Assembly: GCF_012641515.1 (NCBI RefSeq)
Contig: NZ_JABAHY010000005.1
Coordinates: 62,001-126,000 of the forward strand
DNA length: 64,000 nucleotides
Direction of reading: 5' to 3'
Source of the DNA: Nesterenkonia sedimenti
GTDB lineage: Bacteria > Actinomycetota > Actinomycetes > Actinomycetales > Micrococcaceae
The position numbers and the translations under genes are program-made. The notes under the pieces are model-generated. The model did no database searches, had not been told where the DNA came from, and was given only the letters and a program-made list of their open reading frames with translations. Numbering within the stretch: position 1 is the stretch's first letter; every line of letters begins with the position of its first letter. Positions 19,513 to 41,816 of the stretch are shown here, piece after piece.

Positions 19513-20238
19513 ATGACTGAGTTCCAGGTGCCCCAGGATGATCCCTCCCTCTCATTGGAGGAGGTCTGGCCGCCCTTCGGCCTGCGGATCGAATCCCCGC
19601 GGCTGATCCTGCGTCAGCTGCGCGAGACCGATTTCCCTGGGTTCGTGGCCGCGGCCTCCTCCGGGATCATGCCAGGACCCCGGAACGCCTTTGCCGCGGC
19701 CTGGAATGAGAACACCCCGGAGGATATCGCCAAGAACTCCCTGCCCTGGCTGTGGTCGAAGCGCGCAGCCGTCGGCCCGGATTCCTGGTACCTGTTTCTG
19801 GGGGTCTTCCTGAAAGACGAAGATGGTTCCGAGGGGCCGCTGATTGGTGTACAGGATGTCTACGCCGAGGAGTACCGGGTGTTGCGAACCGTCCAGACGG
19901 CCTCCTGGCTGCGCACGGATCAGCAGGGCAAGGGCTATGGCAAGGAACAGCGGGCAGCGGCGCTGATGTGGGCCTTTGACCACTTCGATGCCCAGTACGC
20001 CGAATCCGCTGCCTATGACTGGAATGAGCCCAGCCTCGGGGTTTCAAAGGGTCTCGGCTATTTCCAATCCGGCACCCGCAGGGTCGCCGATGCCCACGGC
20101 AAAGAGCCCGAATGGGAAATCCAGCTGCGGCTGCCCAAGGCCGACTTCCTCCGCCCCAGCTGGAGCGTGGAGGTCACCGGCAATGAGCTGCTCAAAGACT
20201 TCATGCACCTCTCGCAGCGGCATGCGCAAACTGACTGA
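19513..20238 (+). CDS. GNAT-family N-acetyltransferase (RimJ/RimL-like)
   Basis: A 241-residue acetyltransferase. The N-terminal ESPRLILRQLRETDF is typical of the RimJ/RimL subgroup. The acetyl-CoA loop is TDQQGKGYGKEQRAAALMWAF, and the segment DWNEPSLGVSKGLGYFQSG corresponds to the conserved N..S....GLGF region. It acetylates an amine, often a peptide N-terminus or small molecule; the target is unknown. Its last 38 nt overlap the 3' end of the GH20 gene on the opposite strand. Confidence 0.82.
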   Translation: MTEFQVPQDDPSLSLEEVWPPFGLRIESPRLILRQLRETDFPGFVAAASSGIMPGPRNAFAAAWNENTPEDIAKNSLPWLWSKRAAVGPDSWYLFLGVFLKDEDGSEGPLIGVQDVYAEEYRVLRTVQTASWLRTDQQGKGYGKEQRAAALMWAFDHFDAQYAESAAYDWNEPSLGVSKGLGYFQSGTRRVADAHGKEPEWEIQLRLPKADFLRPSWSVEVTGNELLKDFMHLSQRHAQTD

Positions 20239-22015
20239 GCAGCTGACCTAGGGGGTCGAAACGGGAGATGCTGGTATCCAGTCCACCCGGTCGAGCGGAG
20301 AGCAGCCAGGTCTCGCGCTGACCAGCACGCAGCTGATCGAGCCGGTCTAAGAAGACCCGGGCCTCCGCCTGCGGAAGTGTCCCGGAACGTAGAAGCTCCG
20401 AGCCCAGCAGATCCGTGGCGAAGAGTGACCACCGAATAGCCTGCTCAATCTCCCGGACAGCCACCGGCCCCTCGGGACTGGCAGGTTTCGCCGTCTGAAG
20501 CTCATCCAAGGCGCCGGTCAGCGCTGCCCGGGCCTCAGCGAGGCTCTCCGCGCTCGGCAGATGGTGCGGCTCGAGGTCACCGGCCTTCAGCACCCCGCGA
20601 AAGAGCGGGCTGGCATTGGCCATCTTCGCATCCAGGGCATCGGTGACCTGCCCGATGCTGACCAGCACACTGCCCAGCACCCCCGCCTCATCCTCGAAGA
20701 CCAGCCGGTCCAGAACCTCTGGCAGCTGCTCAGCCAGGGCCTCTGCCGAAGAAGCATTCCAGCTCACCCCAGCCCCAAAGAGAGCCGGGGCATAGGAGAT
20801 CGGCAGCGGATCATAGTGACCGTGATCGCCCCAGGAGGTCAGCAGGAAACCCTCGGAGTCATGTTTTACACCGGTGCGGGCGGCGTCGGTGATGTTCCCG
20901 ATCGCATTCTCCAGTCGGCCCGTGAAGGACTGCCAGGTCCCGGTGCCGGGGGCCACCCAGAACGGCACATCGGCCTCGATCAGCGCAGCAGCCCGTGCCT
21001 CAAAATTCGGCAGCTGCCCCAGATCCACCCCATGGGCTTCCATCTGGGCCCGCTCGGCATCACTGAGCTTGCCCAGCACCTCAGCGGTCAGCTCAGGGGA
21101 GTCATAGAGCCAGACCACCGGCACCATACCGGCCGGGATCCGGTCCATCAGCTGTGGATAGCTGCCCAGAATATCGGCCCAGAACTCCACGGTATGCCCA
21201 CGTTCCAACCAGGGCTGAGCCACCTTCTCCACATAGTCCAGGAACACCTCGCCGAGCCCCTGGCGCTCAGTGCGCTCGCGGCTGAGACCAGTGCCCAGCT
21301 CCCAGGTCTCATCAGCACCGATATTGATCCGGGAGGAGCGCAGCGGCCCAGTCAGCTCCTCCAGCAGCCCGGTGATGAACTCCGCGTTCTCATCAGTGGG
21401 CGCCAGGGTAGAAGGCGGCCGCATAAGACCGGCAAACTCCTGGGGCTCCGGATTCTCCGCCCGGGGGAGGTACCTCTCATAAGTCAGCCAACGCTCCCAA
21501 TGCCCAAAGGTGTTCTGATTCGGCACCAGCTCAATACCTCGGGCCGCACAGAGATCATCCAACCAGCGCATATCCTCAGCCGTCATCGGGGACGCATCCG
21601 CCCATACCTCAGCGTGGTCGGAATAGGCGTAGGTGTGCTCAGTGTAGAGCTCCAGCTGGTTGTACCGGCCCAGCACCAGCAGATCCACCAGACGCCTCAG
21701 GGCCCGGCGGGTCGGCACCCGGTCCCGGCTGATATCCAACATGAACCCACGACGACGAAAATCCGGCCAGTCCTCCACCAGCACCGCCTGCTGCTGTTCA
21801 GCTGCACGCCCCCGGAGCTGCTCCAGGCTCTGCTGGGCATAGCGCAGCCCGGCCGCATCGGCATAGGTGATCCGAATGGTCTCGGCATACTCCAGCCGGT
21901 ACCCCTGCTCGGGCAGCTCACTGTCCTGACTGACCACCGTCTCTGCAGCAGGCCCAGGCGGGGTCCGCTCGAGCTCGGTGATCCTACGGGGCGGGGGAAA
22001 CAGCGAGGTCATCAT
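20201..22015 (-). CDS. Glycoside hydrolase family 20 beta-N-acetylhexosaminidase, cytoplasmic
   Basis: A 604-residue GH20-type enzyme. The catalytic Asp-Glu pair is D235-E236 in NIGADETWELG, which anchors substrate-assisted cleavage. RRRGFMLDISRDRVPT opens the TIM barrel, and an NxLxLYTEH segment and a VPNQNTFGHWERW segment follow. It has no signal peptide or membrane anchor, so it acts on imported GlcNAc- or GalNAc-containing oligosaccharides. It is divergent from the ROK kinase at the left edge of the salvage island. A TAGCGT box (minus strand, 22028-22023) ends 7 nt before its ATG, suggesting a leaderless message. The C-terminal 200 residues are helical and less conserved. Confidence 0.87.
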   Translation of the reverse strand: MMTSLFPPPRRITELERTPPGPAAETVVSQDSELPEQGYRLEYAETIRITYADAAGLRYAQQSLEQLRGRAAEQQQAVLVEDWPDFRRRGFMLDISRDRVPTRRALRRLVDLLVLGRYNQLELYTEHTYAYSDHAEVWADASPMTAEDMRWLDDLCAARGIELVPNQNTFGHWERWLTYERYLPRAENPEPQEFAGLMRPPSTLAPTDENAEFITGLLEELTGPLRSSRINIGADETWELGTGLSRERTERQGLGEVFLDYVEKVAQPWLERGHTVEFWADILGSYPQLMDRIPAGMVPVVWLYDSPELTAEVLGKLSDAERAQMEAHGVDLGQLPNFEARAAALIEADVPFWVAPGTGTWQSFTGRLENAIGNITDAARTGVKHDSEGFLLTSWGDHGHYDPLPISYAPALFGAGVSWNASSAEALAEQLPEVLDRLVFEDEAGVLGSVLVSIGQVTDALDAKMANASPLFRGVLKAGDLEPHHLPSAESLAEARAALTGALDELQTAKPASPEGPVAVREIEQAIRWSLFATDLLGSELLRSGTLPQAEARVFLDRLDQLRAGQRETWLLSARPGGLDTSISRFDPLGQLLSQFAHAAARGA

Positions 22016-22022
22016 CGGTTAG

Positions 22023-22046
22023 ACGCTACTGTAGGTGTGATTCACA
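22023..22046. promoter_or_regulatory. Divergent control region between GH20 and the ROK kinase
   Basis: The 63-bp gap holds a perfect inverted repeat TGTGA-T-TCACA at 22036-22046, next to the GH20 -10 box (22028-22023, minus strand). It would overlap the GH20 spacer or -35 region, so it is a candidate operator. It does not match the DasR consensus. Confidence 0.35.
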
Positions 22047-22078
22047 TTCTGGAAATCTTCGGCGCACTTAGGGGACAG

Positions 22079-22987
22079 ATGAGCGGACTGCGGCTCGGCC
22101 TGGATATCGGCGGCACCAAAATCGAAGGTGTTGCCCTCAACGGGCAGGGAGAGGTCATCCGCCGGCTGCGGCAGCCCACCGTCCCCGGCGCAGACGGGGT
22201 CATCACAGGAATCAACGACGCCGTCGCACAGCTCACCGGCGACCGGCAGGAACCGGCAGCAAGTCTCGGCATCGGTATCCCGGGCCAGATTGATGCCACC
22301 GGCGGGCGGGTCCGGCATGCGGTGAACCTCCAGCTCGAAGACCTCGACCTCCGCGAGGCACTGGCACCGCTGGGCATCCCCGTACGAGTGGAGAATGACG
22401 TCAAAGCCGCCGCACTGGGCGCATACACCGCCCACACCCCGCAGGCGGAATCTATGGCCTATCTCAATATCGGCACCGGGGTGGCCGCCGGTATCGTCAT
22501 CGACGGCAAACTGCTCCGTGGTCAGGAGGGGGTGGCCGGGGAGATCGGCCACTTCTCCATCGACCAGCAGGGAACTCCCTGTGCCTGCGGACAGCGCGGC
22601 TGCATCGAAACCTTCACCGGAGGGGGAGCAGTCAGCAGGGCCTGGGGTGGCACCGGCCAGCTGCCACTGGCGGAGATTTTCGAAGCCGCTGAGGCAGGGG
22701 AGCCCCGCGCCTTCGAGCTGCGCGAGGGTATGGGCCGGGGCATCAGTGCCGCAGTCCAGCTGCTGGTGCTGAGCATGGATGTCTCCGCAGTACTGCTCGG
22801 CGGCGGAGTCACTGCCCTGGGCAGCCGGCTGGAGGAGACCGTCCACCGTCACCTCGAACGCATGGCTGCCGACTCCCCGTTCATCCGATCCCTGAACCTC
22901 ACCGAACGGGTCGATATCCTGCCAGCAGGAACCTTCCTGGCGCCCCTGGGGGCGGCACAGATCGCAGAGGAGAGCTCATGGAACTGA
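22079..22987 (+). CDS. ROK-family sugar kinase (NagK/glucokinase-like)
   Basis: A 302-residue ROK kinase without DNA-binding domain. It shows LGLDIGGTKIEGVAL (phosphate 1), RVENDVKAAALGAY with the catalytic Asp, LNIGTGVAAGIVIDG, EIGHFSID and the zinc motif CACGQRGCIETFTGGGAV. The context between GH20 and the muropeptide genes suggests it phosphorylates GlcNAc or ManNAc at C6, feeding NagA. The ATG at 22079 begins the homology, with AGGGGA 3-4 nt upstream. Its end overlaps the start of the next gene by 10 nt, so they are co-translated. Confidence 0.88.
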   Translation: MSGLRLGLDIGGTKIEGVALNGQGEVIRRLRQPTVPGADGVITGINDAVAQLTGDRQEPAASLGIGIPGQIDATGGRVRHAVNLQLEDLDLREALAPLGIPVRVENDVKAAALGAYTAHTPQAESMAYLNIGTGVAAGIVIDGKLLRGQEGVAGEIGHFSIDQQGTPCACGQRGCIETFTGGGAVSRAWGGTGQLPLAEIFEAAEAGEPRAFELREGMGRGISAAVQLLVLSMDVSAVLLGGGVTALGSRLEETVHRHLERMAADSPFIRSLNLTERVDILPAGTFLAPLGAAQIAEESSWN

Positions 22988-25827
22988 CCCCCGCCCAGCA
23001 GCAGGGGCTGCTGACCGCGCTGGAAGCCGCCCTGGGTAAGCAGAAAGTCCTCAGCCGCGCCATCGACCGCCACTCCCGGGCCCATGACGCCTCCCACTAT
23101 CTCTTGGTTCCCCAGGTGGTGGTCAACGCCGAGACCATCGAGGATGTCTCCGCAGTACTTGCCGTGGCCACCGAGCACCGTGTGCCGGTGACCTTCCGCT
23201 CCGGCGGCACCAGCCTCTCCGGACAGGCCTCAGGGGCCGGCATCCTGGTCGACACCCGGCGCGGCTTCCGTGAGATCGAAGTCCTCGACGACGGCCGACG
23301 CGTCCGAGTCCAGCCCGGGGCGGTACTGCGAGCAGTCAACGCCCGGCTGATCCGGCACCGTCGAGCCCTGGGACCAGATCCCGCCAGTGAAGCCGCCTGC
23401 ACCATCGGCGGGGTCATCGCCAATAACTCCTCCGGAATGGCCGCCGGCATCGAGCACAACTCCACTCGAACTCTGGAGTCCATGGTGCTGGTCCTGTCAT
23501 CAGGCACTGTGGTGGATACAGGTGCCGAAGGGGCGCTGGAGCACCTCCGTGAGCAGGAACCCCAGCTGGCGGCCGAACTCGAACGCCTCCAGAAACAGCT
23601 GACCGCAGACCCCCAGGCCGTGGCCGAGATCCGGGAACGGTTCGCCATGAAGAACACTATGGGCTACTCCCTGGACGCCTTCTGCGAGGCACCCGATCTG
23701 CTGACCCTGCTGACCCGCCTGCTCATCGGATCCGAGGGCACCCTGGGCTTTGTGGCCGAGGCGGTCTTTCGCACTGTTGAGGTCCAACCCGCAGCGGCCA
23801 CCGGCCTGCTGATCTTCGACTCCGTGGACCAGGCCGCCCAGAGCCTGCCCGCCCTGGTCGAAACCGGGGCCAAGGCCCTGGAGCTGATGGATGCGGCCTC
23901 CCTGAAGGTGGCCCGCCGCCTGCCCCAGGCCCCGGAGGTCATCCACGGATTCCCGATCGCCGAACACGCCGCAGTGCTGGTCGAATACCGCGGGGATGAC
24001 CAGGCCGAACTCGATGCGACCCTCAGTCTCGCCGAACCGGTGCTGAGCAGTGTGCCCACCACCCGCCCGGCCCAGCTCAGCAGCGAGCCGAGCACCCGCG
24101 CAGCGCTCTGGAGCGTACGCAAGGGTCTCTATGCAGCAGTCGCCGAGGCCAGGCCCCCGGGCACCACCGCACTGCTGGAGGATGTGGTGGTCCCCGTGGA
24201 ACGGCTCGCCGATGCCTGCCGGGACCTCGCCGCCCTGCTGGCGGACCACGACTATACCGATCCGGTGATCTTCGGCCACGCCAAGGACGGCAATCTGCAC
24301 TTCATGATCACCGAGGACACGGAGGATCCCGACTCCCTGGCACGACTGGAGGCCTTCACCGAGGATCTGGTCGAGCTCATCCTCGCCCATGGCGGAAACC
24401 TCAAAGCCGAACACGGCACCGGCCGGGCCATGGCCCCGTTCATCGACCGCCAGTACTCCCCGGTGCTGGTGGAGGCACTGCATGCGCTCAAACGCGCCTT
24501 TGACCCCGCCGGGGTGCTCAACCCCGGGGTGGTGTTGACCACGGACGCCCAGGCCCATCTGCATGACCTCAAACCCGTGGCCCGGATCGACGCTGAGGTG
24601 GACCGCTGTGTGGAATGCGGCTACTGCGAACCGGTCTGCCCCAGCCGGGACCTCACCCTGACCCCGCGGCAGCGCATTGTCATCCGCCGTGCCCGGGAGC
24701 GGGCCAAAGCAGCCGGCGACGAGGCCCTGGTCGCCGAACTCGACCAGCAGCAGGAATACGAGAGCATCGACACCTGCGCCGCCGACGGGATCTGCGCCAC
24801 CGCCTGCCCGGTGGGGATCGACACCGGGGCCATGGTCAAACGCCTCCGCGGGGAAGAACACGGCCGACTGGCCCAGAGCACCTGGAAGACTGCGGCCCAG
24901 CATTGGAAAACCGCAGTCAATACCGCAGGCTTTGCCCTGAATATCGCCCAGAAGGCACCACCAGGACTGATCACCCTCCCCAACCGGGCCGCCCGGGCAG
25001 TCCTGGGTCCGGACACTATTCCGCTGTGGTCCCAGGACCTCCCCTCAGGGGGACAGCGCCGCAGCCGGGTCACCGAGAAGATCACCAGCACAGCTGGCCA
25101 GAGCGAACCCGCTGCGATCTTCCTGCCCAGCTGCCAGGGCACCATGTTCGCCCCCGCGGAGGGCTCAGAAGGTGTGCAGTCAGCCGTGCTGCGGCTCTGT
25201 GAGGCAGCCGGGGTGAGCGTCGTCGTCCCGGGGGAGATCGATGGGCTCTGCTGCGGAACCCCCTGGTCATCCAAGGGGTTCACCAGTGGACACCAGGTGA
25301 TGGCACAGAAGGTCCAGGAAGCCATCGGCAAACTCCAGCAGATCCACGGTGCGGAGATTCCGGTGATTGTCGATGCCACCTCCTGCACCGAGGGGGTTCA
25401 GGGAATCGCGCAGCAGGCCCCAGTGGTGGATGCGGTCAGCTTCGTCATCGAGACCGTTCTGCCCCGCCTGGTGGACACACCCCGGCAGCCGGTGGACTCC
25501 CTGACCCTGCATCCGACCTGTTCCTCCCAGAAATCGGGGCTGAACCCTGCACTGCAGGCACTGGCCGAGGCCATTGCCGATGAGGTGCATATCCCTGAGG
25601 ACTGGGGCTGCTGCGGATTCGCCGGGGACCGGGGCATGCTCCACCCCGAACTGACCGCCTCAGCCACTGCAGCCGAGGCCGGACAGGTCAGAGAGTACGA
25701 CGCCGCCGAACACGCCTCCTGCAACCGGGCCTGCGAGATCGCCCTGAGCCGGGCCACCGGCTACAGCTACCGGCATCTGCTGGAGATTGCCGCCGAGGTC
25801 CTGGCCCCGCAGACCGTGACCGCCTAG
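22978..25827 (+). CDS. FAD/Fe-S D-lactate dehydrogenase-like oxidoreductase (single-chain GlcD-GlcF type)
   Basis: A 949-residue fusion. Residues about 40-220 form the PCMH FAD-binding domain (TFRSGGTSLSGQASG, TIGGVIANNSSGMAAG); about 260-525 form the FAD-oxidase C domain (FGHAKDGNLHFM, AEHGTGRAMAPF). Two ferredoxin-like clusters follow, CVECGYCEPVCPS from C544 and CAADGICATACPVG near 600. Two CCG domains (GLCCGTPW near 758, WGCCGFAGDRG near 877) end the chain. This layout is that of quinone-linked D-lactate or 2-hydroxyacid dehydrogenases. MurQ, encoded in the same island, releases D-lactate, so it probably oxidises that lactate to pyruvate. It overlaps the kinase gene by 10 nt. Glycolate or D-2-hydroxyglutarate are alternative substrates. 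Confidence 0.88.
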   Translation: MELTPAQQQGLLTALEAALGKQKVLSRAIDRHSRAHDASHYLLVPQVVVNAETIEDVSAVLAVATEHRVPVTFRSGGTSLSGQASGAGILVDTRRGFREIEVLDDGRRVRVQPGAVLRAVNARLIRHRRALGPDPASEAACTIGGVIANNSSGMAAGIEHNSTRTLESMVLVLSSGTVVDTGAEGALEHLREQEPQLAAELERLQKQLTADPQAVAEIRERFAMKNTMGYSLDAFCEAPDLLTLLTRLLIGSEGTLGFVAEAVFRTVEVQPAAATGLLIFDSVDQAAQSLPALVETGAKALELMDAASLKVARRLPQAPEVIHGFPIAEHAAVLVEYRGDDQAELDATLSLAEPVLSSVPTTRPAQLSSEPSTRAALWSVRKGLYAAVAEARPPGTTALLEDVVVPVERLADACRDLAALLADHDYTDPVIFGHAKDGNLHFMITEDTEDPDSLARLEAFTEDLVELILAHGGNLKAEHGTGRAMAPFIDRQYSPVLVEALHALKRAFDPAGVLNPGVVLTTDAQAHLHDLKPVARIDAEVDRCVECGYCEPVCPSRDLTLTPRQRIVIRRARERAKAAGDEALVAELDQQQEYESIDTCAADGICATACPVGIDTGAMVKRLRGEEHGRLAQSTWKTAAQHWKTAVNTAGFALNIAQKAPPGLITLPNRAARAVLGPDTIPLWSQDLPSGGQRRSRVTEKITSTAGQSEPAAIFLPSCQGTMFAPAEGSEGVQSAVLRLCEAAGVSVVVPGEIDGLCCGTPWSSKGFTSGHQVMAQKVQEAIGKLQQIHGAEIPVIVDATSCTEGVQGIAQQAPVVDAVSFVIETVLPRLVDTPRQPVDSLTLHPTCSSQKSGLNPALQALAEAIADEVHIPEDWGCCGFAGDRGMLHPELTASATAAEAGQVREYDAAEHASCNRACEIALSRATGYSYRHLLEIAAEVLAPQTVTA

Positions 25828-26996
25828 GGATCCACCACCTGAAGGCGCTCCACGGGCACCGAGGACTGCTCGACTGAAGGAGCTGGCGCCGGGGGAGTCA
25901 GCGAACCCAGAACAACAGGCCTCTGGGCGCCTGTGGCGCGGGGACCATGGGGATCGCTCAGCTGTGCCGGTGCCGTGCCGGGCAGACCATGTACGGCCAG
26001 GAACCCCAGCAGAGCGAAGAGATAGGCCTCCTTGGCATCGGCAGCCAGGCCGAGCTCACTGCTGGTGGTCACCTCGCCGGTAAGCTCAGCCAGCCGGTCC
26101 ACCAGGACAGGGTTGCGCGCCCCACCCCCGGAGAGCACCAGCCGCTGGGCACCGGTGACAGCATCGGCGATGGTCCGGGCGGTCAGTTCCGTCAGGGTCG
26201 CAAAGAGATCATTGCCGGTAGGTACCGCAACCCCGGCCTCGGCCAGCCGCTGGGCCACATAGTCCCGGTGGAAATACTCCCGGCCTGTGGTGCGCGGGAA
26301 ATCGCGGGCGTAATAGGGATCGGCCAGCAGGGCCTCCAGGGCTGGGGAATCTACCTGTCCGTCCGCGGCAAGGGCCCCACCGGCATCACATTTCTGGCCC
26401 AGCTCGGCAGCAGCGGCATCCAACAGACAGTTGCCCGGACCGGTATCTCCGGTGCTGATCTCCTCGCCTCCGACCAGGGTGAGATTCGCTATCCCACCGA
26501 TATTCAGCACTGCAGTGGGCTGCTCACCCAGCCAGAGCTGATCCAAGAGGCTCACCAGGGGTGCTCCGTGACCGCCGGCTGCCACATCGGAGCTGCGCAG
26601 ATCCGAGATCACCGGCAGCCCGGTGGCAGCGTGGATCCACGCTGGCTGACCCACCTGCAGGGTCCCCAATACCCGTCCCTGGGCCACATGGTGGAACAGG
26701 GTCTGGCCATGAGAGACCACCAGTTCAGCAGACCCCAACTCAGCCAGGCCAATCCGCCCGGCCTCACCGAAGGCCTGCCCAATCCGGGTGTCCAATGCAC
26801 ACCACTGTCGGACCCCCACCTCAGCCGGTGGGAGACTGGCCAGAATCTGCTCCCGCAGCTGCGCATCCCAGGGCACCTCCAGATGTCCCAGGGGTTTCAG
26901 CTCAAGGGTTGAGGGATCCGCAGCGAAGTTCAGATCGGCCAGGGCGACGTCGATGCCATCCACCGAGGTGCCCGAGGACAGGGCTAGGACCCGCAT
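25824..26996 (-). CDS. anmK: Anhydro-N-acetylmuramic acid kinase
   Basis: A 390-residue AnmK, which hydrolyses the anhydro bond of 1,6-anhydroMurNAc and phosphorylates it to MurNAc-6P. Signatures are LALSSGTSVDGIDVAL (ATP site), VVSHGQTLFHH, DLRSSDVAAGGHGAPL, LNIGGIANLTLV and LSGGGARNPVLV. It starts in a TGATG overlap with the nagZ stop, so it is co-translated with nagZ. The presence of AnmK shows that anhydromuropeptides made by lytic transglycosylases are among the imported substrates. The C-terminal 40 residues are a Pro/Ala-rich tail not seen in standard AnmK. Confidence 0.95.
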   Translation of the reverse strand: MRVLALSSGTSVDGIDVALADLNFAADPSTLELKPLGHLEVPWDAQLREQILASLPPAEVGVRQWCALDTRIGQAFGEAGRIGLAELGSAELVVSHGQTLFHHVAQGRVLGTLQVGQPAWIHAATGLPVISDLRSSDVAAGGHGAPLVSLLDQLWLGEQPTAVLNIGGIANLTLVGGEEISTGDTGPGNCLLDAAAAELGQKCDAGGALAADGQVDSPALEALLADPYYARDFPRTTGREYFHRDYVAQRLAEAGVAVPTGNDLFATLTELTARTIADAVTGAQRLVLSGGGARNPVLVDRLAELTGEVTTSSELGLAADAKEAYLFALLGFLAVHGLPGTAPAQLSDPHGPRATGAQRPVVLGSLTPPAPAPSVEQSSVPVERLQVVDP

Positions 26997-28492: not shown

Positions 28493-28538
28493 ATCAAAAG
28501 GTTTACATGATTAGGCTGATCGAGGAAAGTGACTAACT

Positions 28539-30131: not shown

Positions 30132-30155
30132 CGGCTATGTTTCAGATCACAAAAT

Positions 30156-30211
30156 TTATTGACATGGATTGCCCCGGCTCGTAAGTTATTGACAACCACC
30201 TTATGAGGGAG
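30156..30211 (+). promoter_or_regulatory. Promoter, direct repeat and ribosome site of the muropeptide operon
   Basis: A -35 box TTGACA (30159-30164) and a weak -10 TAAGTT (30182-30187) are 17 bp apart. The 9-mer TTATTGACA occurs twice, at 30156-30164 and 30186-30194, exactly 30 bp apart. This could be a regulator site, for instance for the MurR-like protein encoded at the end of the operon. GAGGGAG at 30205-30211 is the ribosome site, 7 nt before the GTG of namZ. Confidence 0.5.
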
Positions 30212-30218
30212 TCATCAC

Positions 30219-31376: not shown

Positions 31377-31400
31377 CCGCAATCCCATGGAAGGAACACT

Positions 31401-33062: not shown

Positions 33063-33100
33063 GCACTGACGGAGCTGTTGATCCCCCTGGGAGGGCGTAC

Positions 33101-34078: not shown

Positions 34079-34082
34079 ACCC

Positions 34083-35936
34083 ATGAAGCTGAACTCACTC
34101 TGGCCCGCCTCCGGCAAAGTCCGCGCCGGGCTGATCATCGTCATCTTCTTCGTCCTGCTGGCGGTCTTCGGGCCGATGATCACCGATTACGCCCCGCGGG
34201 CCACCGGCAACCCACCACTGCAGCCACCCTCAGCCGATCACTGGCTGGGCACCACCCAGACCGGACAGGACGTCTTCAGCCAGTTCGTCCACGGCGCTCG
34301 GGTCTCCCTGGCGGTGGGCTTCATCGCCGGTGTGCTCTCCCAGATCGTCTCCGTGCTGGTCGGCCTGGTCGGCGGCTATTTCCGCGGGATCGCCGATGAG
34401 ATGCTCTATATCCTCACCGCGGTCTTCCTGGTCATCCCCGCAATGCCGCTGCTGATCGTGCTCACCGGTTATTTGCCCACCCGCGGGATGATCTCAGTGG
34501 CCATCGTCATCACCATCACCTCCTGGGCCCCGGCAGCCCGCGTGCTGCGCGCCCAGACCCTCTCCCTGCGCAACCGAGACTTCGTCGAGGCCGCCCGCGC
34601 CACCGGCGAATCCCGGATGCGCATCATGTTCTACGAGGTGATGCCCAATGCCCTGCCGGTGATCGCCTCCGGCTTCCTGTTCTCCACGATCGCGGCGATC
34701 CTCGCCGAGGCCGGACTGTCCTTCCTCGGCCTGGGCTCCCTGACCACGGTCAGCTGGGGCTCGATGCTCTACTTCGCACAGAACAACCAGGCGCTGCTGG
34801 TCGGGGCCTGGTGGTGGTTCGTCCCACCGGGTCTGGCGATTGCGATCATCGGTGCCGGACTCGCTCTGATCAACTTCGGCATCGACGAATACGCCAACCC
34901 CCGGCTGCGCACCGGCAAATCCCGACGCAAGGCAGCACGCCCGGCCGGTCGGGGTTCCGCGGCTATGAGCAGCACCGCAGCATCGGCAGCCGCAGGTGCG
35001 GAGGCGTCATCGTCATCCTCCGGGGTTTCAGAGGGGAGTTTGGGAGGTACGGAATCCACTGAGACAACCGACGACGACGCCAGCCCGCCCCAGATCAGAG
35101 GATCCGAGGTCCCCGGGGATCCGGTGATCTCGGTGCGTGACCTCATTGTGGACTACCCCACCGAGGACGGGGCGGTCCGGGCGGTGGACCATGTCTCGAT
35201 CACCCTGCACCGCGGTGAGCTGCTGGGTCTGGCCGGTGAATCCGGTTCCGGCAAATCCACCCTGACCAATGCCATCACCCGGCTGCTGCGCAACCCCGCA
35301 GAGGTCAGCGGTGGTGAGATCACCTATCACCGCAGCACCCGCACCGGGGAGAGCACCGAGGTGGATCTGCTGAACCTCCCGGCCGAGGAGCTGCGAGCCT
35401 TCCGCTGGAGCGAGCTGGCCATCGTCTTCCAATCGGCGATGAACGCGCTGAACCCCGTCCTGCGGGTCTCAGCACAGTTCGACGACGTCCTGCGGGTCCA
35501 CCGCCCCGGGATGTCAGCGGCAGGCCGGAAAGAACTGGCCCAGGAGATGCTGCATAAGGTCGGCATCGACCCCGAGCGGGTCACCGCCTACCCCCATGAG
35601 CTCTCCGGGGGAATGAAACAGCGGGTGGCCATCGCCATCGCCCTGGTGCTGGAACCCGATGTGATCATCATGGACGAGCCCACCACCGCCCTGGACCTGC
35701 TGGTTCAGCGGGAGGTGCTCGAACAGGTGATGCAGCTGCGGGAGGAATACGGCTTCGCCATCATCTTCACCACCCACGATCTCTCCCTGCTGCTGGAGAT
35801 CTCGGACACGATCGCGGTGATGCAGACCGGAACCCTGGTCGAATACGGACCGGCCACCGATGTCTACTCCGACCCCCGCCACCCCTACACCAAGACACTG
35901 CTGAGCTCGCTCGCGAACCTGGGAGCCCGGATATGA
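34083..35936 (+). CDS. Fused ABC permease (DppC type) and ATPase (DppD type)
   Basis: A 617-residue fusion. Residues about 1-285 are a DppC-type permease ([20 protein letters not shown] is the EAA loop). A Ser/Ala/Thr-rich linker of roughly 60 residues follows. Residues about 345-617 are an ABC ATPase with Walker A GESGSGKS (about 385-392), signature LSGGMKQR (about 508), Walker [13 protein letters not shown] and the H-loop FTTHDLS. Such permease-ATPase fusions occur in actinobacterial oligopeptide importers. It shares an ATGA overlap with the next ATPase gene, and both ATPases probably form a heterodimer on one channel. Confidence 0.92.
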
Positions 35937-36811
35937 CCACAGTCCCCACCACAGATGCACAGAACGGCCCCGCCGCAGGCGCCGGTGAGGTGATCCTGGA
36001 GGCCCGTGACCTCGTCAAGGACTTCCGTGGCAAACGCGTGGGCCTGCACCGGCAGCGTTTCCGCGCAGTGGACCATGTCTCCCTGCAGCTGCGCCGCGGA
36101 CAGGTCACCGCCCTGGTCGGCCAATCCGGTTCGGGCAAATCCACCGTCGGCCGGCTGCTGGCCCAGCTGATGCCCCAGACCTCCGGTGAGCTGCTGCTCA
36201 ACGGGCAGCCGATCACCGCCCACCGGGGGCGGGCCTTCATCCGCTACACCAGCACCGTGCAGATGACCCTTCAGGATCCCTTCGCCTCCCTGAACCCGGT
36301 GCACCGGATCAGCTACATCCTGGCCCGGGCGCTGAGCATCCACGGTCACGCTAAGGGAGCCGAGGAGATCGAGGAGAAGAGCCTGGCCCTGCTCCGCAAG
36401 GTCAATCTCACCCCACCGGAGCGCTATCTGCGCCGGTTCCCCCATGAGCTCTCCGGCGGTGAGCGCCAACGAATCTCCTTCGCCCGGGCCCTGGCCGCCG
36501 AACCGCAGGTGCTGCTGGCCGATGAGCCGGTCTCGATGCTGGATGTCACCATCCGCAAGGAGATTCTGGACCTCTTGGACCAGCTGCGCACTGAGGAGAA
36601 CCTCGCAGTCCTCTACATCACCCATGACCTCGGCTCCGCTAGGGCCTACTCCGAGGAGACCCTGGTGATGTACCGCGGGGAGGTCGTCGAACGCGGCAGC
36701 AGTGCCGATGTCATCGACAACCCCCAGCATGAATACACCCAACGCCTGCTTGCCGCGGCTCCGAACCCGCGACGTCGGCTCAGCAACCCCGGTGAGGAGT
36801 TCCGCGGATGA
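35933..36811 (+). CDS. ABC transporter ATPase, DppF type
   Basis: A 292-residue ATPase that pairs with the fused ATPase upstream. Walker A is GQSGSGKST, the signature LSGGERQRI, Walker B VLLADEPVSMLD and the H-loop YITHDLG. The terminal oligopeptide-type domain LAAAPNPRRRL is short. It is linked by 4-nt ATGA overlaps to the upstream and downstream (murQ) genes, so importer and murQ are one translational unit. This ties the transporter directly to MurNAc metabolism. Confidence 0.92.
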   Translation: MTTVPTTDAQNGPAAGAGEVILEARDLVKDFRGKRVGLHRQRFRAVDHVSLQLRRGQVTALVGQSGSGKSTVGRLLAQLMPQTSGELLLNGQPITAHRGRAFIRYTSTVQMTLQDPFASLNPVHRISYILARALSIHGHAKGAEEIEEKSLALLRKVNLTPPERYLRRFPHELSGGERQRISFARALAAEPQVLLADEPVSMLDVTIRKEILDLLDQLRTEENLAVLYITHDLGSARAYSEETLVMYRGEVVERGSSADVIDNPQHEYTQRLLAAAPNPRRRLSNPGEEFRG

Positions 36812-37728
36812 CAAAAAGTGTGGGAGCAGACCACAGCCTGGCCGAACTGGCCACTGAAGGAATCGACGAACGCTACCGCGACCTCGACTCCCGAAGCACC
36901 CTGGGCGTCCTTGAGGCGATGAACGAGGCCGAGGCCGAGGTGCCCCGGGCCGTGAACCGGGCCCTGCCCCAGATCAGCCAATTGGTCGATGGTGTCGCCG
37001 CCCGGCTGCGCACCGGGGGACGGCTCATCTATCTCGGCGCCGGGACCTCCGGGCGGCTCGGCATCGTCGATGCCTCCGAATGCCCCCCGACCTTCTACAC
37101 CTCCCCGGAGACTATCCAGGCGCTGATCGCCGGCGGACGGGAGGCGGTGTTCTCTGCCGTGGAGGCAGCCGAGGACTCCCAGGAGGCCGGGGCCAAGGAT
37201 CTGGCCGAACTGCAGATCAGCAGCCGGGACGCCGTCGTCGGGATCGCTGCCTCAGGCCGGACACCCTATGTGCTCGGTGCCGTCCGGGCCGCAGCCGAGG
37301 TTGGGGCGCTGACCGGCGGTATCGCCTGTAATACCGGCTCCGAGCTCAGCGCGGCAGTCCAGTACCCCGTGGAGGTCGAGGTCGGCCCCGAGGTGCTGGC
37401 CGGTTCCACCAGGCTGAAGGCCGGTTCAGCCACCAAACAGGTGCTGAATATGATCTCCACTGCCGTGATGGTCCAGAACGGCAAGACCTACGGCAACCTC
37501 ATGGTGGATGTGGCCATCACCAATGCGAAACTCCGCGACCGCGGTGAGCGGCTGATCATGCGGATCACCGGATGTGACCGCAACCGGGCGAAACATGCTC
37601 TGCGGGACTCCGGGGACCGGGTGAAAGTCGCCGCAGTGATGCTCACCCGGGGCCTGGACCGAGAGGCCGCGGAGCTGGTTCTGCGCATGAATGACGAACG
37701 GTTAGCCCCTGCACTGGAGGCAAACTGA
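36808..37728 (+). CDS. murQ: N-acetylmuramic acid 6-phosphate etherase
   Basis: A 306-residue SIS-domain etherase that splits MurNAc-6P into GlcNAc-6P and D-lactate. The diagnostic block LIYLGAGTSGRLGIVDASEC is at about 73-92 with ECPPTF after it; IAASGRTPYVLGAV, CNTGSELSAAV, GSATKQVLNMIST and NGKTYGNLMVDV follow. The ATG overlaps the ATPase gene stop (ATGA). The product lactate can be taken by the D-lactate dehydrogenase-like enzyme of the same island, and the sugar by NagA then NagB. Confidence 0.96.
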   Translation: MTKSVGADHSLAELATEGIDERYRDLDSRSTLGVLEAMNEAEAEVPRAVNRALPQISQLVDGVAARLRTGGRLIYLGAGTSGRLGIVDASECPPTFYTSPETIQALIAGGREAVFSAVEAAEDSQEAGAKDLAELQISSRDAVVGIAASGRTPYVLGAVRAAAEVGALTGGIACNTGSELSAAVQYPVEVEVGPEVLAGSTRLKAGSATKQVLNMISTAVMVQNGKTYGNLMVDVAITNAKLRDRGERLIMRITGCDRNRAKHALRDSGDRVKVAAVMLTRGLDREAAELVLRMNDERLAPALEAN

Positions 37729-37731
37729 TCT

Positions 37732-38646
37732 ATGATCTCCAGCATGGCCTCCAGAAAGCGAAGCACCGGTGCCGAGCCTCTCGACCTGCCGACCGGGGTG
37801 ACCTTGGTCAGCCGGATCAACGGGCTGCTGCCAGACCTCCGCCCCTCCGAGCGGCGGGTGGCTGAAGCTGTGGTGGAGGATCCCGCCACTGTGGCTCGGG
37901 AGTCCATTACCACCCTGGCCCAGCGGTGCAATACCTCGGCACCGACAGTGGTGCGCTTCGCCAAACGGCTGGGCCTGCCCGGATACCCCCAGCTGAAACT
38001 GGCCCTGGCCAAAGAGGCCGGAATCGAGGAGGGCCGCAACTCCCGCGGACCGCTCTCGGGAGCATTGGATGCCAGCGACAGCCTGGAGGATGTGGTCTCC
38101 AAGATCGGTTACGCCGGCACCCGTGCCCTGGAGGAGACCGCCCAGATGCTCGACGTCGGCGCCCTGGAGAAGGCAGTGGACGCTGTGGTTTCCGCCCGCC
38201 GGATCGACCTGGTCGGCGTCGGCGCTGGTGCAGTGGCCGTACTGGACCTCGACCAGAAGCTCTCCCGGCTGGGCCTGGCGACCTTCCAGCATCCTGACCG
38301 GCATGGGGCGATGACGGCTGTCTCGCTGCGCGGGGAACAGGATGTGGTCATCGGGATCTCACATTCGGGCTCCACCTCCGATGTGCTGGCGCCTATCGAA
38401 TTGGCCCGCTCCCTGGGGGCGACCACTATCGGCATCACCAATCACCCCACCTCCCAGTTGGCCTCCACAGTGGATATCACCCTGTTGACCGCCTCCCGGG
38501 AGACCTCCTTCCGACCGGCGGCAATGGCCAGCCGGATCGCCCAGCTGATGGTCATCGACTGCCTGCTCACCGGGGTGGCCATGCGGGATATGGACTCCAC
38601 TCAGCAGGCCCTGGACGCCAGCTTCCGGGCAGTCGCCGACCTCTAG
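37732..38646 (+). CDS. murR: MurR/RpiR-family transcriptional regulator
   Basis: A 304-residue regulator with an N-terminal HTH_6 domain (about 20-100: RVAEAVVEDPATVARESITT, NTSAPTVVRFAKRLGLPGYP) and a C-terminal SIS sugar-phosphate domain (about 140-270: VGVGAGAVAV, IGISHSGSTSDVL). In E. coli the homologous MurR represses murQP and senses MurNAc-6P; here it ends the operon and probably controls it in the same way. It starts 3 nt after the murQ stop. Its stop overlaps by 4 nt with the stop of the serine hydrolase on the other strand. Confidence 0.88.
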   Translation: MISSMASRKRSTGAEPLDLPTGVTLVSRINGLLPDLRPSERRVAEAVVEDPATVARESITTLAQRCNTSAPTVVRFAKRLGLPGYPQLKLALAKEAGIEEGRNSRGPLSGALDASDSLEDVVSKIGYAGTRALEETAQMLDVGALEKAVDAVVSARRIDLVGVGAGAVAVLDLDQKLSRLGLATFQHPDRHGAMTAVSLRGEQDVVIGISHSGSTSDVLAPIELARSLGATTIGITNHPTSQLASTVDITLLTASRETSFRPAAMASRIAQLMVIDCLLTGVAMRDMDSTQQALDASFRAVADL

Positions 38647-39785
38647 GTGACAGCCCGGCGGGCAGTAGCGGCCACCGCCCGGCGCAGCGGCATCAGCATG
38701 AAGGCATCCCGATGCGGATGCACATTATTGGTTAGCAGCACCACCACGAGGTCGTCGATGGGATCGATCACCAGCGAGGTGCCCACAAAACCGGTATGCC
38801 CCAGCACCTGAGTATCCCCGGTGCCCATAAACCCGAATTGACCCATCCGCAGACCCATCGACTGGTTATAGCCGACCCGCTCATGCTCTGCGGCACTGAG
38901 CGTCCCAGTGGACAGCAGCTGGCGTCCTGCAGGGCTCAGAACACCAGCCGAACCAGTGCGGATCTCCTCACCGAGCCGGAAGATATCTGCCGCCGTGGAG
39001 AACAGCCCCGCATTGCCGGAACCGCCCAGGGCGCCGGCCGCCTCATCGTGGACCTCGCCGACCACCAGGCCCCGTCCGGTGGTGGTGTCATATTCGGTGG
39101 CGGCCACCGGCAGTCCCGGCTGCGGGGTATAGGAGGTCGACTCCATCCCCAGGGGACCGGTGACAGTTTCAGCGATCAGTTCTGGAAGCTGCAATCCGGT
39201 GATCCGCTCCAGGGCAAGCCCCAGAGTCATGAACCCCACACAGGAGTAGACATGGCTCTCACCGGGGGTGCGCTCCAGCGGCCGGCTGAGCAGATAGGCC
39301 GCCCGGTCATCGCGGCCGCCGGGCACAGTCCAGGGCCGGGCCACTGAGGAGAGCCCCGAGGTGTGGTTCAGCAGATGCCGGATCAGAACATGCCGTCGCG
39401 AGAGAGGAGAGGTGGCGGCGTCGTCGTCGGTTTCAAACTCGGGGAGGTATTCCACCACGGGGGCGTCTAAGTCCAAGCTGCCGCGCTGGTGCTGCACCAT
39501 AGCCGCGACGGCAACTGCCACTTTGGTCAATGAGGCGATATCCCAGAGCTCCTCGGAGCTCACCGCTCGCTGTTGCGAGGCGGGAAGGAGACTGCCGTCC
39601 TGGTCGAAGAGCACCGACATCCCGGCGTGCTGATGGCTGAGGATCTCCCCGCGGTGGGCGATCAGGGCCTCCGCGCCCGGGGCAGCGCAGGGCAGCTCGC
39701 CATCCTTCCGAGGGGCGCCACCGGCCTCCGCGGCAGTCCTGGTCGCCTCGGCCAGCAGCTGTTCCAGTTCCTCATCAAGCGTCAT
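38643..39785 (-). CDS. Serine beta-lactamase-like hydrolase, possibly an AmiE-like MurNAc-peptide amidase
   Basis: A 380-residue class C beta-lactamase/penicillin-binding fold enzyme. The nucleophile is S85 in SLTK (85-88), the second motif is Y180-S-C, and the third is H-T-G in LGHTGFVG. HLLNHTSGL is the usual surface loop. The Cys in place of the common Asn of YxN is a deviation. It has no signal peptide, so it is not a periplasmic beta-lactamase. In Bacillus the muropeptide cluster includes AmiE of this fold, which removes peptides from MurNAc; this gene next to the MurR gene may do so in the cytoplasm. An esterase role is the alternative. A TACTAT box lies 8 nt before the start. Confidence 0.7.
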   Translation of the reverse strand: MTLDEELEQLLAEATRTAAEAGGAPRKDGELPCAAPGAEALIAHRGEILSHQHAGMSVLFDQDGSLLPASQQRAVSSEELWDIASLTKVAVAVAAMVQHQRGSLDLDAPVVEYLPEFETDDDAATSPLSRRHVLIRHLLNHTSGLSSVARPWTVPGGRDDRAAYLLSRPLERTPGESHVYSCVGFMTLGLALERITGLQLPELIAETVTGPLGMESTSYTPQPGLPVAATEYDTTTGRGLVVGEVHDEAAGALGGSGNAGLFSTAADIFRLGEEIRTGSAGVLSPAGRQLLSTGTLSAAEHERVGYNQSMGLRMGQFGFMGTGDTQVLGHTGFVGTSLVIDPIDDLVVVLLTNNVHPHRDAFMLMPLRRAVAATARRAVT

Positions 39786-39840: not shown

Positions 39841-39886
39841 GGCAGTATCAACGATTCCCGCCGGTTTCTGCGGGGGAGGGAGCTGA

Positions 39887-40660
39887 ATGCAGGTCGTCAT
39901 CTTCGCCGACGCGCAGGCCGCCGGAGCCTATGGAGCCGGACTCATCAATGACCGGCTCGAGCGCGGGGCACTCAATGTCCTCGGCGTGGCCACCGGATCC
40001 TCCCCGGTGCCGCTCTACCAGGCATTGGCGGCTGATCCCCACCCCCGGTTGACCGGACTGACTGCCTTCGCCCTGGATGAATACGTCGGCCTGCCCAAGG
40101 AGCACCCGGAGAGCTACGACTCGGTGATCGACCGGAAGGTGCGTCGGCCCCTGGGCCTGGACCCCGCCCGGGTCCACGTCCCCGATGCCGACCCCGAACG
40201 GCTGGAGACCGCCGGTGAACGCTATGAGCAGCGGATCGCCGAGGCCGGCGGGGTGGACTTACAGATCCTGGGCATCGGAGCCACCGGCCATATCGGGTTC
40301 AATGAGCCGACCTCCTCGCTGGCCTCCAGGACCCGGCTGAAGACTCTGGCCCCGGCCACCCGGGCGGATAACGCCCGCTTCTTCGACTCCGAGGATGAGG
40401 TGCCGGTGCACTGCATCACCCAGGGGATCGGCACCATTCTCGACGCCGGGGAAGTCCTGCTGCTGGCCCAGGGGGAGCAGAAGGCCAGGGCCGTGGCCCA
40501 AGCAGTGGAGGGCCCCATCAGCAGTATGTGTCCGGCATCGGCCCTGCAGTTGCACCGGAAGGCCACCCTCCTTTTGGATGAGGCGGCGGCATCCCAGCTG
40601 GAATACACCGACTACTACCGGTTCGTGCACCAGAACCGCCCCGATTGGCAGCGCCCCTAG
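39887..40660 (+). CDS. nagB: Glucosamine-6-phosphate deaminase
   Basis: A 257-residue NagB, converting GlcN-6P to fructose-6P plus ammonia. Conserved blocks are GVATGSSPVPLYQAL (phosphate loop), TAFALDEYVGLP with the catalytic Asp, LGIGATGHIGFNEPTSSL with the general-base region, and GPISSMCPASALQLH. The hexameric allosteric tail of E. coli NagB is absent, as in other Gram-positive forms. The ribosome site is strong. It precedes nagA by 4 nt, so both form a nagBA operon that completes amino-sugar breakdown. Confidence 0.95.
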   Translation: MQVVIFADAQAAGAYGAGLINDRLERGALNVLGVATGSSPVPLYQALAADPHPRLTGLTAFALDEYVGLPKEHPESYDSVIDRKVRRPLGLDPARVHVPDADPERLETAGERYEQRIAEAGGVDLQILGIGATGHIGFNEPTSSLASRTRLKTLAPATRADNARFFDSEDEVPVHCITQGIGTILDAGEVLLLAQGEQKARAVAQAVEGPISSMCPASALQLHRKATLLLDEAAASQLEYTDYYRFVHQNRPDWQRP

Positions 40661-40664
40661 ACCC

Positions 40665-41816
40665 ATGCTGATCTCCGCGGAACGGGGCCTGACCCCTGAT
40701 GGCCGATTGGAACCGCTCTGGCTGCGGATCCAGGACGGACGCATCGCTGAATCCGGCACAGGAACACCGCCGGGGCCGGCGGATCTCCACCACAGCCACG
40801 GAGTGCTCAGCCCCGGATTCGTGGACGTGCACTGTCACGGCGGAGGAGGCGCAGACTTCACCCAGGGGGCCGAGGGCGCCCGGACCGTACGCTCCACCCA
40901 CCTGGCACAGGGCACGACGACGATGCTCGCCTCACTGGTCAGCGCACCCCAGGATGTGCTCCTCGAGCAGATCAAGGAGCTGAAACCCCTGGTGGACTCC
41001 GGGGAACTGGCCGGAGTGCATCTGGAAGGCCCCTGGCTGGCCCCCGGCCGCAGCGGAGCTCATGACCCCGAGGTCCTGACCAACCCCGAGACCGCAGCAG
41101 CCGAGCAGCTGTTGGGGCAGGGGGCCATCAGAATGGTGACTATTGCCCCTGAACTGCCGGGGGCTCTCGAGACCATCAGCGCAGTCAGCTCTGCGGGCGC
41201 GGTTGCGGCAGTGGGCCATACTGATGCCGACTACCGGCAGACCCAAGACGCCCTCGCCGCCGGCGCCACTGCCGGAACCCATCTCTTCAACGCGATGGCG
41301 GGGCTGCACCACCGGGAGCCGGGCCCCATCCCCGCACTGCTGGAGGCCGGGGCCTGGTTGGAGCTGATCGCCGATGGCGTCCACCTCCACCCGGCGGTGC
41401 TGGATATGGTCTTTACCACTGCCCCGGAGAAGACGGTTCTGGTCTCAGATGCCATGGCGGCATCCGGTATCGGCGACGGCGACTACACCCTCGGCGGTCT
41501 CGAGGTCCGCGTTGCCGATGGCGAGGCGCGACTGCGGGGCCCCGATGGCGCAGTCGGGGCCATCGCCGGATCCACCCTGAGCCTCTCCGCAGCTCTACGC
41601 CACAGCGTGCTGGAGGCAGGGGTCCCCACTGCTCAGGCCCTGCAGGCTGCAACGGCCCATCCGGCCCGGATGATCGGGCTGAGCGATACCGGGGCGCTCT
41701 CCCCGGGAAACCGGGCTGATCTCGTCCTTCTGAATGACCAGCTCCTGGTCGAAGGCGTTATGCGTGCAGGTCAGTGGGTATCCGATGGCCAGGGCAATAC
41801 TGACCCTGGGTTATGA
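40665..41816 (+). CDS. nagA: N-acetylglucosamine-6-phosphate deacetylase
   Basis: A 383-residue metal-dependent deacetylase that makes GlcN-6P and acetate from GlcNAc-6P. It shows the metal motif GFVDVHCHGGGGADF, HLEGPWLAPGRSGAH with the metal Glu, GHTDADYRQT, GTHLFNAMAGLHHREPG and the catalytic Asp in VLVSDAMAASG. The ATG at 40665 follows the nagB stop by 4 nt; the open frame extends upstream but only as antisense-like overlap with nagB. It joins the flux from MurQ and from the GlcNAc kinases. Confidence 0.94.
   Translation: MLISAERGLTPDGRLEPLWLRIQDGRIAESGTGTPPGPADLHHSHGVLSPGFVDVHCHGGGGADFTQGAEGARTVRSTHLAQGTTTMLASLVSAPQDVLLEQIKELKPLVDSGELAGVHLEGPWLAPGRSGAHDPEVLTNPETAAAEQLLGQGAIRMVTIAPELPGALETISAVSSAGAVAAVGHTDADYRQTQDALAAGATAGTHLFNAMAGLHHREPGPIPALLEAGAWLELIADGVHLHPAVLDMVFTTAPEKTVLVSDAMAASGIGDGDYTLGGLEVRVADGEARLRGPDGAVGAIAGSTLSLSAALRHSVLEAGVPTAQALQAATAHPARMIGLSDTGALSPGNRADLVLLNDQLLVEGVMRAGQWVSDGQGNTDPGL

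Follow-up and report, generated by a model that had tools for sequence, protein, structure and literature searches.

Gene content of the island

The window analysed here is the whole 64,000-nucleotide stretch of Nesterenkonia sedimenti contig NZ_JABAHY010000005.1 from position 62,001 to 126,000, and the system in question is a gene island at 20201-41816, probably for the salvage of peptidoglycan fragments built of N-acetylglucosamine (GlcNAc) and N-acetylmuramic acid (MurNAc). The original prediction, made from the letters of the sequence, had named hydrolases, kinases, an ATP-binding cassette (ABC) importer, a MurNAc-6-phosphate etherase and a regulator in this segment, and all of the gene functions it named were recovered by translation and by Pfam and NCBIfam scans. 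Two starts were corrected: the ROK frame is 22079-22987, and NagA starts at about 40665. The genes are the following.

20201-22015, minus strand: GH20 beta-N-acetylhexosaminidase without signal peptide (PF00728 4e-10; PF02838; GADE motif; 1 codon open upstream)
22079-22987, plus strand: ROK-family sugar kinase, likely a GlcNAc kinase (PF00480 3.1e-53; start by choice of start codon)
22978-25827, plus strand: FAD / 4Fe-4S D-2-hydroxyacid dehydrogenase of D-lactate type (PF01565, PF02913, Fer4, CCG)
25824-26996, minus strand: AnmK, anhydro-MurNAc kinase (NF007146, 465 bits, cut-off 440)
26996-28492, minus strand: GH3 NagZ-type beta-N-acetylglucosaminidase without signal peptide (PF00933; KHFPGHGATTVDSH)
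28539-30131, plus strand: fusion of a MurK-like (BadF-type) sugar kinase and a GlmA/OGA-related GNAT acetyltransferase (PF01869 and PF00583)
30219-31376, plus strand: NamZ exo-beta-N-acetylmuramidase without signal peptide (PF07075 5e-49; PF20732 2.5e-42; 4 codons open upstream)
31401-33062, plus strand: family-5 solute-binding lipoprotein, SBP_bac_5 (PF00496; signal score 2.19)
33101-34078, plus strand: ABC permease B (profile match; 70% identical to the permease of locus L110)
34083-35936, plus strand: ABC permease C fused to ATPase D (profile match)
35933-36811, plus strand: ABC ATPase F, with a 4-base overlap with the murQ start (profile match)
36808-37728, plus strand: MurQ, MurNAc-6-phosphate etherase (TIGR00274, 344.7 bits, cut-off 302)
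37732-38646, plus strand: MurR/RpiR-type regulator (profile match, under the equivalog cut-offs)
38643-39785, minus strand: AmiE-like beta-lactamase-fold serine hydrolase without signal peptide (PF00144 1e-53; SxxK as SLTK; 7 codons open upstream)
39887-40660, plus strand: NagB, glucosamine-6-phosphate deaminase (NF001684 above cut-off; TIGR00502 under it, 230.5 vs 236.9)
40665-41816, plus strand: NagA, GlcNAc-6-phosphate deacetylase (TIGR00221, 231.8 bits, cut-off 225.65)

The plus-strand run 28539-38646, from the kinase-GNAT fusion through NamZ, the solute-binding protein (SBP), B, C/D, F and MurQ to MurR, looks like one operon by its layout, with 4-base overlaps between ATPases D and F as well as between ATPase F and MurQ. 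NagZ and AnmK are divergent from this run, and GH20 and the AmiE-like gene lie on the minus strand. Alignment of MurQ with the Escherichia coli enzyme gave 134 identical among 281 aligned residues, with both glutamates kept (E83 and E114, presumably the catalytic residues in E. coli numbering). NamZ has both the NamZ_N and NamZ_C domains as well as the PEHG motif, and falls in a clade of non-exported NamZ proteins. NagZ conserves the loop motif of the His/Asp dyad, KHFPGHG...DSH, and matches PDB entries 6k5j (3e-51) and 3bmx of YbbD (4e-47), yet stays under the NF003740 cut-off (165 bits vs 207). For the AmiE-like protein the best NCBIfam model is PBP4B, under its cut-off. The FAD/Fe-S dehydrogenase is a candidate for disposing of the D-lactate that the MurQ reaction sets free. 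A minus-strand open reading frame (ORF) opposite the ROK gene (22019-22852) was discarded as non-coding, as was the portion of the plus frame 20561-22987 that precedes 22079.

Export signals and absence of MurP

Export was scored by a home-made measure, a hydrophobic N-terminal stretch following a basic start. The threshold of 1.5 was set after the first scores had been seen, and a twin-arginine rule was added later for near-threshold Tat-like leaders. By the threshold alone, false positives among the controls were 1/76 for MurQ, 0/18 for AnmK, 0/13 for NagB, 0/45 for MurR and 4/37 for ATPase F, and true positives were 14/16 for SBP and 5/6 for SBP1. As had been predicted, the island hydrolases lack signal peptides: the first 55 residues of GH20, NagZ, NamZ and the AmiE-like protein, and also of AnmK, fall below the signal score, and the SBP scores positive. 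Start sites further upstream, the loophole foreseen at the time, offer little room, the open frame extending by only 1-7 codons for these five proteins. The predicted lack of a MurP transporter was borne out as well, with 0 matches to phosphotransferase system (PTS) enzyme IIC (EIIC) in this genome (99.72% complete) and 7 of 14 control genomes positive.

The description of the system as all-cytoplasmic applies to the enzymes of the island but not to the cell, since a second GH3/NagZ is encoded elsewhere in the genome (L191:1210-3012), LpqI-like, with a lipobox leader and the KHFPGHG loop motif of NagZ. These two features suit a mixed order of events, in which the lipoprotein NagZ and other exported enzymes trim first, the ABC system imports MurNAc-peptide or small sugars, and the cytoplasmic NagZ and NamZ finish leftovers. 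In mycobacteria the disaccharide is split by NagZ, named in the PDB as probable lipoprotein LpqI, and the lactyl ether is removed afterwards (PMC6572805). Such an order leaves two things unexplained, namely the missing NamZ export signal in loci with family-5 pumps and the retention of two NagZ-type enzymes. It is compatible with import before cutting, and both may hold; we consider it rather unlikely, though the strongest of the alternatives.

With regard to the sources of fragments, the genome gave no match to SLT or to the PF01832 glucosaminidase domain. Two Rpf-type transglycosylase domain matches are present, which makes anhydro-ends for AnmK plausible.

The transporter and its likely cargo

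A sequence search with the SBP demonstrated that its nearest PDB entries are 6lzt (5e-69) and 1zty, 'Chitin Oligosaccharide Binding Protein' (1.3e-63), chitooligosaccharide binders which we take to be of Vibrio origin, followed by 4pft (1.9e-60) and the mannoside-binding protein 4pfu (1.5e-47), with MppA far behind (2.7e-12). Between the SBP and the chitooligosaccharide binders, the PSDWPD / PNGWTD segment has its Trp and Asp in register. The deposited variants differ from one another at the Asn and the Phe of TNYFHG and at the Phe of MPRF, which adjoins a gap; the SBP has Ala, Pro and Val there, and the variants are presumably binding-site mutants. An oligosaccharide is the likely cargo, chitobiose itself being less so, and, given that the closest matches of the SBP are chitooligosaccharide binders, glycan-bearing fragments appear likelier than peptides. 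NamZ acts as an exo-muramidase; therefore a cytoplasmic NamZ would make sense only if glycans that are longer or MurNAc-ended enter the cell. Uptake is thus predicted for fragments that exceed GlcNAc-MurNAc in length or that carry MurNAc on their non-reducing side.

The same SBP matches to Vibrio-type binders (5e-69) and the aligned Trp and Asp would also suit a transporter of chitin fragments, chitobiose or longer, with GH20, ROK, NagA and NagB serving chitin and the muramic-acid genes being mere neighbours; GH20, ROK and NagAB would be enough for chitobiose. This explanation is improbable in view of the position of NamZ directly upstream of the ABC genes and of MurQ overlapping them, the NamZ-ABC pairing in other lineages, the Ala, Pro and Val at the variant positions, and the genome without a GH18 match (GH19 lying outside the search).

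A further explanation is that of an ordinary peptide importer recovering stem peptides, unrelated to sugars. Family-5 ABC systems are generally known mostly as peptide or nickel importers, many are encoded in this genome, and MppA, which imports murein peptides, provides a precedent. Moreover, the SBP of the interleaved operon L086 belongs to the peptide-type branch (7kz8 8e-45; 1zty 1e-14). The SBP of the window, however, is far closer to the sugar branch (5e-69) than to MppA (2.7e-12), and the permease of the window is nearest, after that of L110 (70% identity), to a GH32-linked system (48%). We hold this explanation to be very unlikely.

Next in permease identity come GH3-linked systems (44-45%), whereas the other NamZ- or MurQ-linked permeases, L110 aside, reach 28-41%. 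The Nonomuraea SBP is distant from both the window and L086 branches (best match 4pft, 3.5e-20). A single orthologous system comprising the importers of the window, of Streptosporangiaceae and of the L047 type is not favoured, the permease being nearer to GH32- and GH3-linked systems and the SBPs having differing PDB neighbourhoods; recruitment of family-5 pumps apparently took place on more than one occasion. Related SBPs and permeases were also seen in the ABC systems of Thalassospira and Rhizobium plasmids (L194, 7308-14253, and L195, 7362-14188), which follow a GNAT gene and a leaderless, NagZ-sized GH3 gene.

NamZ location and pump type across genomes

NamZ is uncommon, with counts of 16/396 sampled genomes in the phylum, 6/295 in the family and 1/30 in the genus. 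The NamZ locus of one genome of the same family (L056) shares 82% DNA identity with Paenarthrobacter nitroguajacolicus along 5.5 kb, so that this family is probably Micrococcaceae. A scan of species genomes with an alignment of four non-exported NamZ proteins yielded 581 confirmed stretches, the best 80 of which were kept; adding loci from the family (5), the phylum (7) and the plasmid collection (3) gave the 95 NamZ loci scored. Pumps were labelled from tblastn neighbours, and the class with a sugar ABC system plus a GNAT gene was defined after locus L108 had been seen.

NamZ was exported in none of the 8 loci with a family-5 ABC neighbour, in none of the 3 with sugar ABC plus GNAT and in all 6 with MurP. 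Among the remaining loci 76 were exported, one was scored as not exported (L119) and one, cut by the contig end (L158), was left uncounted. The threshold alone gave 0/8, 0/3 and 6/6, with 65/78 for the others. In L119 (Geomicrobium, 7871-11155) NamZ is the rear part of a NagZ-NamZ fusion, a 1094-codon frame that opens with a signal-like stretch; the score had been taken from that rear part, and the protein is counted as exported below. With the window included, NamZ is exported in 0/9 family-5 loci vs 83/86 other determinable loci, the three exceptions being those with sugar ABC and a GNAT gene. The AmiE-like protein has a signal in 0/14 family-5 loci, 3/3 MurP loci and 25/37 others. For NagZ the counts are 0/8, 1/6 and 28/53, which are unreliable, many Bacillus-type N-termini lying past the 110-codon limit. 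The predicted order, import and then cutting, is backed by this pattern of pump type and NamZ location; the further claim that the fragments enter intact is not supported.

In the midpoint-rooted NamZ tree (95 rows, window included) the window and L110 form a pair (100/100) that groups with eight other actinobacterial ABC-linked NamZ proteins (98/93), and both haloarchaeal ABC-linked NamZ proteins are positioned elsewhere. ABC linkage needs two changes on this tree, each with signal loss (2/2 independent pairs in most random pairings). A second lineage, L110, keeps the order NamZ-SBP-permB-permC, with identities of 51%, 47%, 70% and 75%, and five Streptosporangiaceae loci (L107, L111, L114, L115 and L117) keep AmiE-MurQ-NamZ-GNAT-F-D-C-B-SBP. 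Comparison of gene order among actinobacterial genomes, which had been proposed as a check, therefore showed that the NamZ-ABC pairing recurs in other lineages and genera.

MurQ loci of the family

The 49 MurQ loci examined in the family were drawn from 64 genomes over the cut-off, with regions picked to spread over genera. Family-5 permeases occur in 8 of them, and an AmiE-like gene accompanies all 8, as compared with 8 of the 41 others (Fisher 2.9e-5, relatedness being ignored). A dehydrogenase homologue was found in 9/49. The loci L047 (same genus, 4390-16059), L080 and L086 share the order SBP-B-C-murQ-anmK-amiE-ATPases with a divergent murR adjoining; in L080 a gap of 2.9 kb between anmK and amiE holds another membrane-protein ORF.

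Other occupants of the slot by MurQ, typed from ten scanned proteins, eight of them transport proteins, are an SSF symporter (L048, L052), major facilitator superfamily (MFS) permeases (L057, L063, L067, L068) and a PTS EIIBC (L084). In the same-genus loci L048-L054 MurQ stands beside a permease of 9-12 helices, assigned to SSF by Pfam in L048 and L052, and some of these loci also carry MurK-like and D-lactate-type dehydrogenase genes. The stretches fetched for L048-L053 (only 11 kb for L049) gave no homologue of NamZ, NagZ or AmiE, as would be expected if these loci imported a free monosaccharide.

The kinase-GNAT fusion

The kinase half of the fusion matches the MurNAc/GlcNAc kinase 8zo3 of the PDB (2.8e-13) and, weakly, human NAGK; its best NCBIfam model, N-acetylglucosamine kinase, is under cut-off. 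The GNAT half (29535-30131) matches acetyltransferases at 4e-38 (3zj0) and 1e-36, and O-GlcNAcase entries at about 1e-12. Loci of Nonomuraea, Streptomyces and Kribbella have a GNAT gene next to NamZ, and two haloarchaeal loci have one next to AnmK, which supports a role as a GlmA-like amino-sugar acetyltransferase.

Haloarchaeal islands

Genes for AnmK, an AmiE-like serine hydrolase, NamZ and NagZ lie beside ABC genes in plasmid stretches from Haladaptatus salinisoli, Halorussus halophilus and Halorussus limi; the ABC genes are known from annotation only for Halorussus halophilus and are confined to the SBP (PF00496) in the Halorussus limi stretch. The plasmid loci L109, L196 and L198 have NamZ by ABC genes, with AnmK, AmiE-like protein and NagZ lacking signals. 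In Halorussus limi (L198) leaders of twin-arginine type were seen by eye on a peptidoglycan recognition protein (PGRP)-type amidase (PF01510), on two proteins annotated as GH18 and on the SBP, and none on AnmK, the AmiE-like protein, NamZ and NagZ. MurQ is not annotated in the stretches of these three species. The stretch from Halomontanus rarus contains NamZ copies along with a serine hydrolase and an ABC system, no AnmK or NagZ being annotated in it, and the haloarchaeal locus L189 has NamZ and family-5 genes with no AnmK or NagZ hit.

Archaea are not known to have murein. Among archaeal genomes, those with peptidoglycan hydrolases more commonly have OppBCDF-MppA homologues (23% vs 8%), and whether archaea making such hydrolases use bacteria as a resource has been raised (PMC12352652); the haloarchaeal counterpart of the island bears on that question of bacteria as archaeal food.

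A proposed import-first pathway

The island is probably a system for peptidoglycan salvage in which import precedes cutting. The gene content, the operon layout, the sequence-level absence of export signals, the lack of a PTS EIIC match and the comparative pattern support this directly. From them we infer the substrate, the in vivo roles of the enzymes and the regulation, as follows. Outside the cell, autolysins (the genome has the two Rpf-type transglycosylase matches), perhaps with the lipoprotein NagZ, would release glycan fragments. The family-5 importer, composed of the lipoprotein SBP, permeases B and C and ATPases D and F, would take up GlcNAc/MurNAc oligosaccharides, some of them probably still peptide-bearing. 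Inside, the AmiE-like hydrolase would strip the peptide, NagZ/GH20 and NamZ would alternately trim GlcNAc and MurNAc, and the GNAT would re-acetylate glucosamine. The MurK-like kinase, the ROK kinase and AnmK would yield MurNAc-6P and GlcNAc-6P; MurQ would convert the former to GlcNAc-6P and D-lactate, to be oxidised by the flavin dehydrogenase, and NagA/NagB would lead into glycolysis. MurR may sense MurNAc-6P.

Several observations weigh against this reading or weaken its support. The genome has 27 SBP_bac_5 matches, some of them fragments, so that a family-5 SBP near murQ is not rare by itself; the evidential weight is carried instead by the 4-base ATPase/murQ overlap and by recurrence elsewhere. 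The predicted SBP structure, from a six-row alignment, is of low confidence (pLDDT 49.9, pTM 0.41). NagZ is not significantly tied to the family-5 MurQ loci (5/8 vs 14/41, p 0.23), nor are AnmK and the dehydrogenase (p 1.0 over the 49 loci), and NagZ export in relatives is poorly judged. With the lipoprotein GH3/NagZ encoded elsewhere, part of the trimming may precede uptake. Eleven loci with sugar-ABC homologues and no GNAT have exported NamZ, whereas the three with GNAT do not, and hence the pattern belongs to family-5 pumps and not to ABC pumps generally. It amounts to at most two independent changes, too few for a sign test to fall to 0.05, and monophyly of the 12 ABC-linked NamZ proteins as a whole was not rejected (approximately unbiased test, p 0.099). 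Moreover, 29 of the 84 non-ABC loci are from Streptomyces; 8 of the 84 are shorter than 15 kb, where a distant importer could be missed.

The number of SBP_bac_5 matches could also suggest that unrelated genes stand together by chance and that signal peptides were missed. Such an explanation is scarcely credible given the same-pathway content, the 4-base overlaps, the closed upstream frames and the recurrence in other genera.

More broadly, and somewhat short of an even chance, the two geographies of salvage may be interchangeable. When a family-5 ABC pump (or, in three loci, sugar ABC plus GNAT) joins, NamZ and its partner hydrolases would come to lie inside, signal-less. This would have arisen in Actinomycetota and separately in haloarchaea, whose islands, several of them plasmid-borne, would let murein-less hosts eat bacterial walls. 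If this is true, the haloarchaeal sequence would run from exported PGRP amidase and GH18 through ABC uptake to cytoplasmic NamZ, NagZ, AmiE-like hydrolase and AnmK.

Relation to known systems

The recycling route of E. coli through AmpG, NagZ, AmpD, AnmK and MurQ is alike in importing first, in cutting in the cytoplasm and in combining AnmK with MurQ. AmpG is an MFS permease for anhydro-muropeptides, and E. coli also has MurP. A MurK / glucosamine N-acetyltransferase pathway of Clostridium acetobutylicum was reportedly described by Reith et al. in 2011. That organism resembles the window in its MurNAc/GlcNAc kinase, its glucosamine N-acetyltransferase and intracellular muropeptide cleavage in a Gram-positive (PMC4974736, PMC10465942), and import before cleavage has been proposed for it (PMC4974736). 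In the window, by contrast, kinase and acetyltransferase are fused, and the island adds MurQ, NamZ, AnmK, the AmiE-like protein and the ABC system; the comparison with Clostridium was of functions.

As proposed for the window, a peptide-type ABC importer of Agrobacterium tumefaciens, YejBEF-YepA, brings in peptidoglycan fragments, which NagZ and AmpD cleave within the cell; the bacterium is Gram-negative, and YepA is exclusive to Alphaproteobacteria (PMC9790009). In contrast, the SBP of the window is, among PDB entries, nearest to oligosaccharide binders, and transporter and enzymes share one island. The murQ-murR-murP-amiE-nagZ-ybbC(namZ) cluster of Bacillus subtilis also unites MurQ, MurR, an AmiE-type enzyme, NagZ and NamZ in one locus, but there NagZ and AmiE act outside and the PTS transporter MurP imports MurNAc (PMC5061867), whereas the window has no export signals, an ABC importer, an ATP-dependent MurK-like kinase and AnmK. 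The claim of a different order of the same chemistry is thus to be narrowed to a variant: the order does differ from that of B. subtilis, but the principle of importing first was already known or proposed for AmpG, YejBEF-YepA and Clostridium.

Mycobacterial recycling through NagZ/LpqI takes place in actinobacteria without MurP (PMC6572805), and a lipoprotein GH3/NagZ is encoded in the genome of the window too. The mycobacterial MurNAc transporter is called unknown, and no comparable island is described, in the portions of PMC13041923 considered; MurP is also missing in S. coelicolor (PMC5061867). For actinobacteria without MurP the island thus names a candidate importer of MurNAc fragments. 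Among the literature matches listed (titles and starts of abstracts, with subscription papers mostly absent), no actinobacterial ABC muropeptide importer or haloarchaeal muropeptide-salvage island was described. Three things are apparently new: a version with an ABC importer in actinobacteria, the association of NamZ location with the type of pump, and the parallel island in haloarchaea.

Regulatory sites and neighbouring genes

An imperfect palindrome in the nagZ-murK gap (28509-28521), considered as a MurR operator, is not clearly enriched in the window, with 8 matches of at most 2 mismatches vs 4.9 expected and 15 of 100 shuffles reaching as many. The six intergenic gaps scanned, this one included, contain no palindrome of at least 83%. 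Upstream of the island, a cytochrome P450-like gene (18245-19497) is seemingly split into two overlapping frames, 18245-19003 and 18892-19497, of which the latter alone gives a match to a P450 model; the gene looks broken or affected by a sequence error. Just downstream of NagA, two adjoining ORFs (42250-43364) are acetyltransferase-like by eye.

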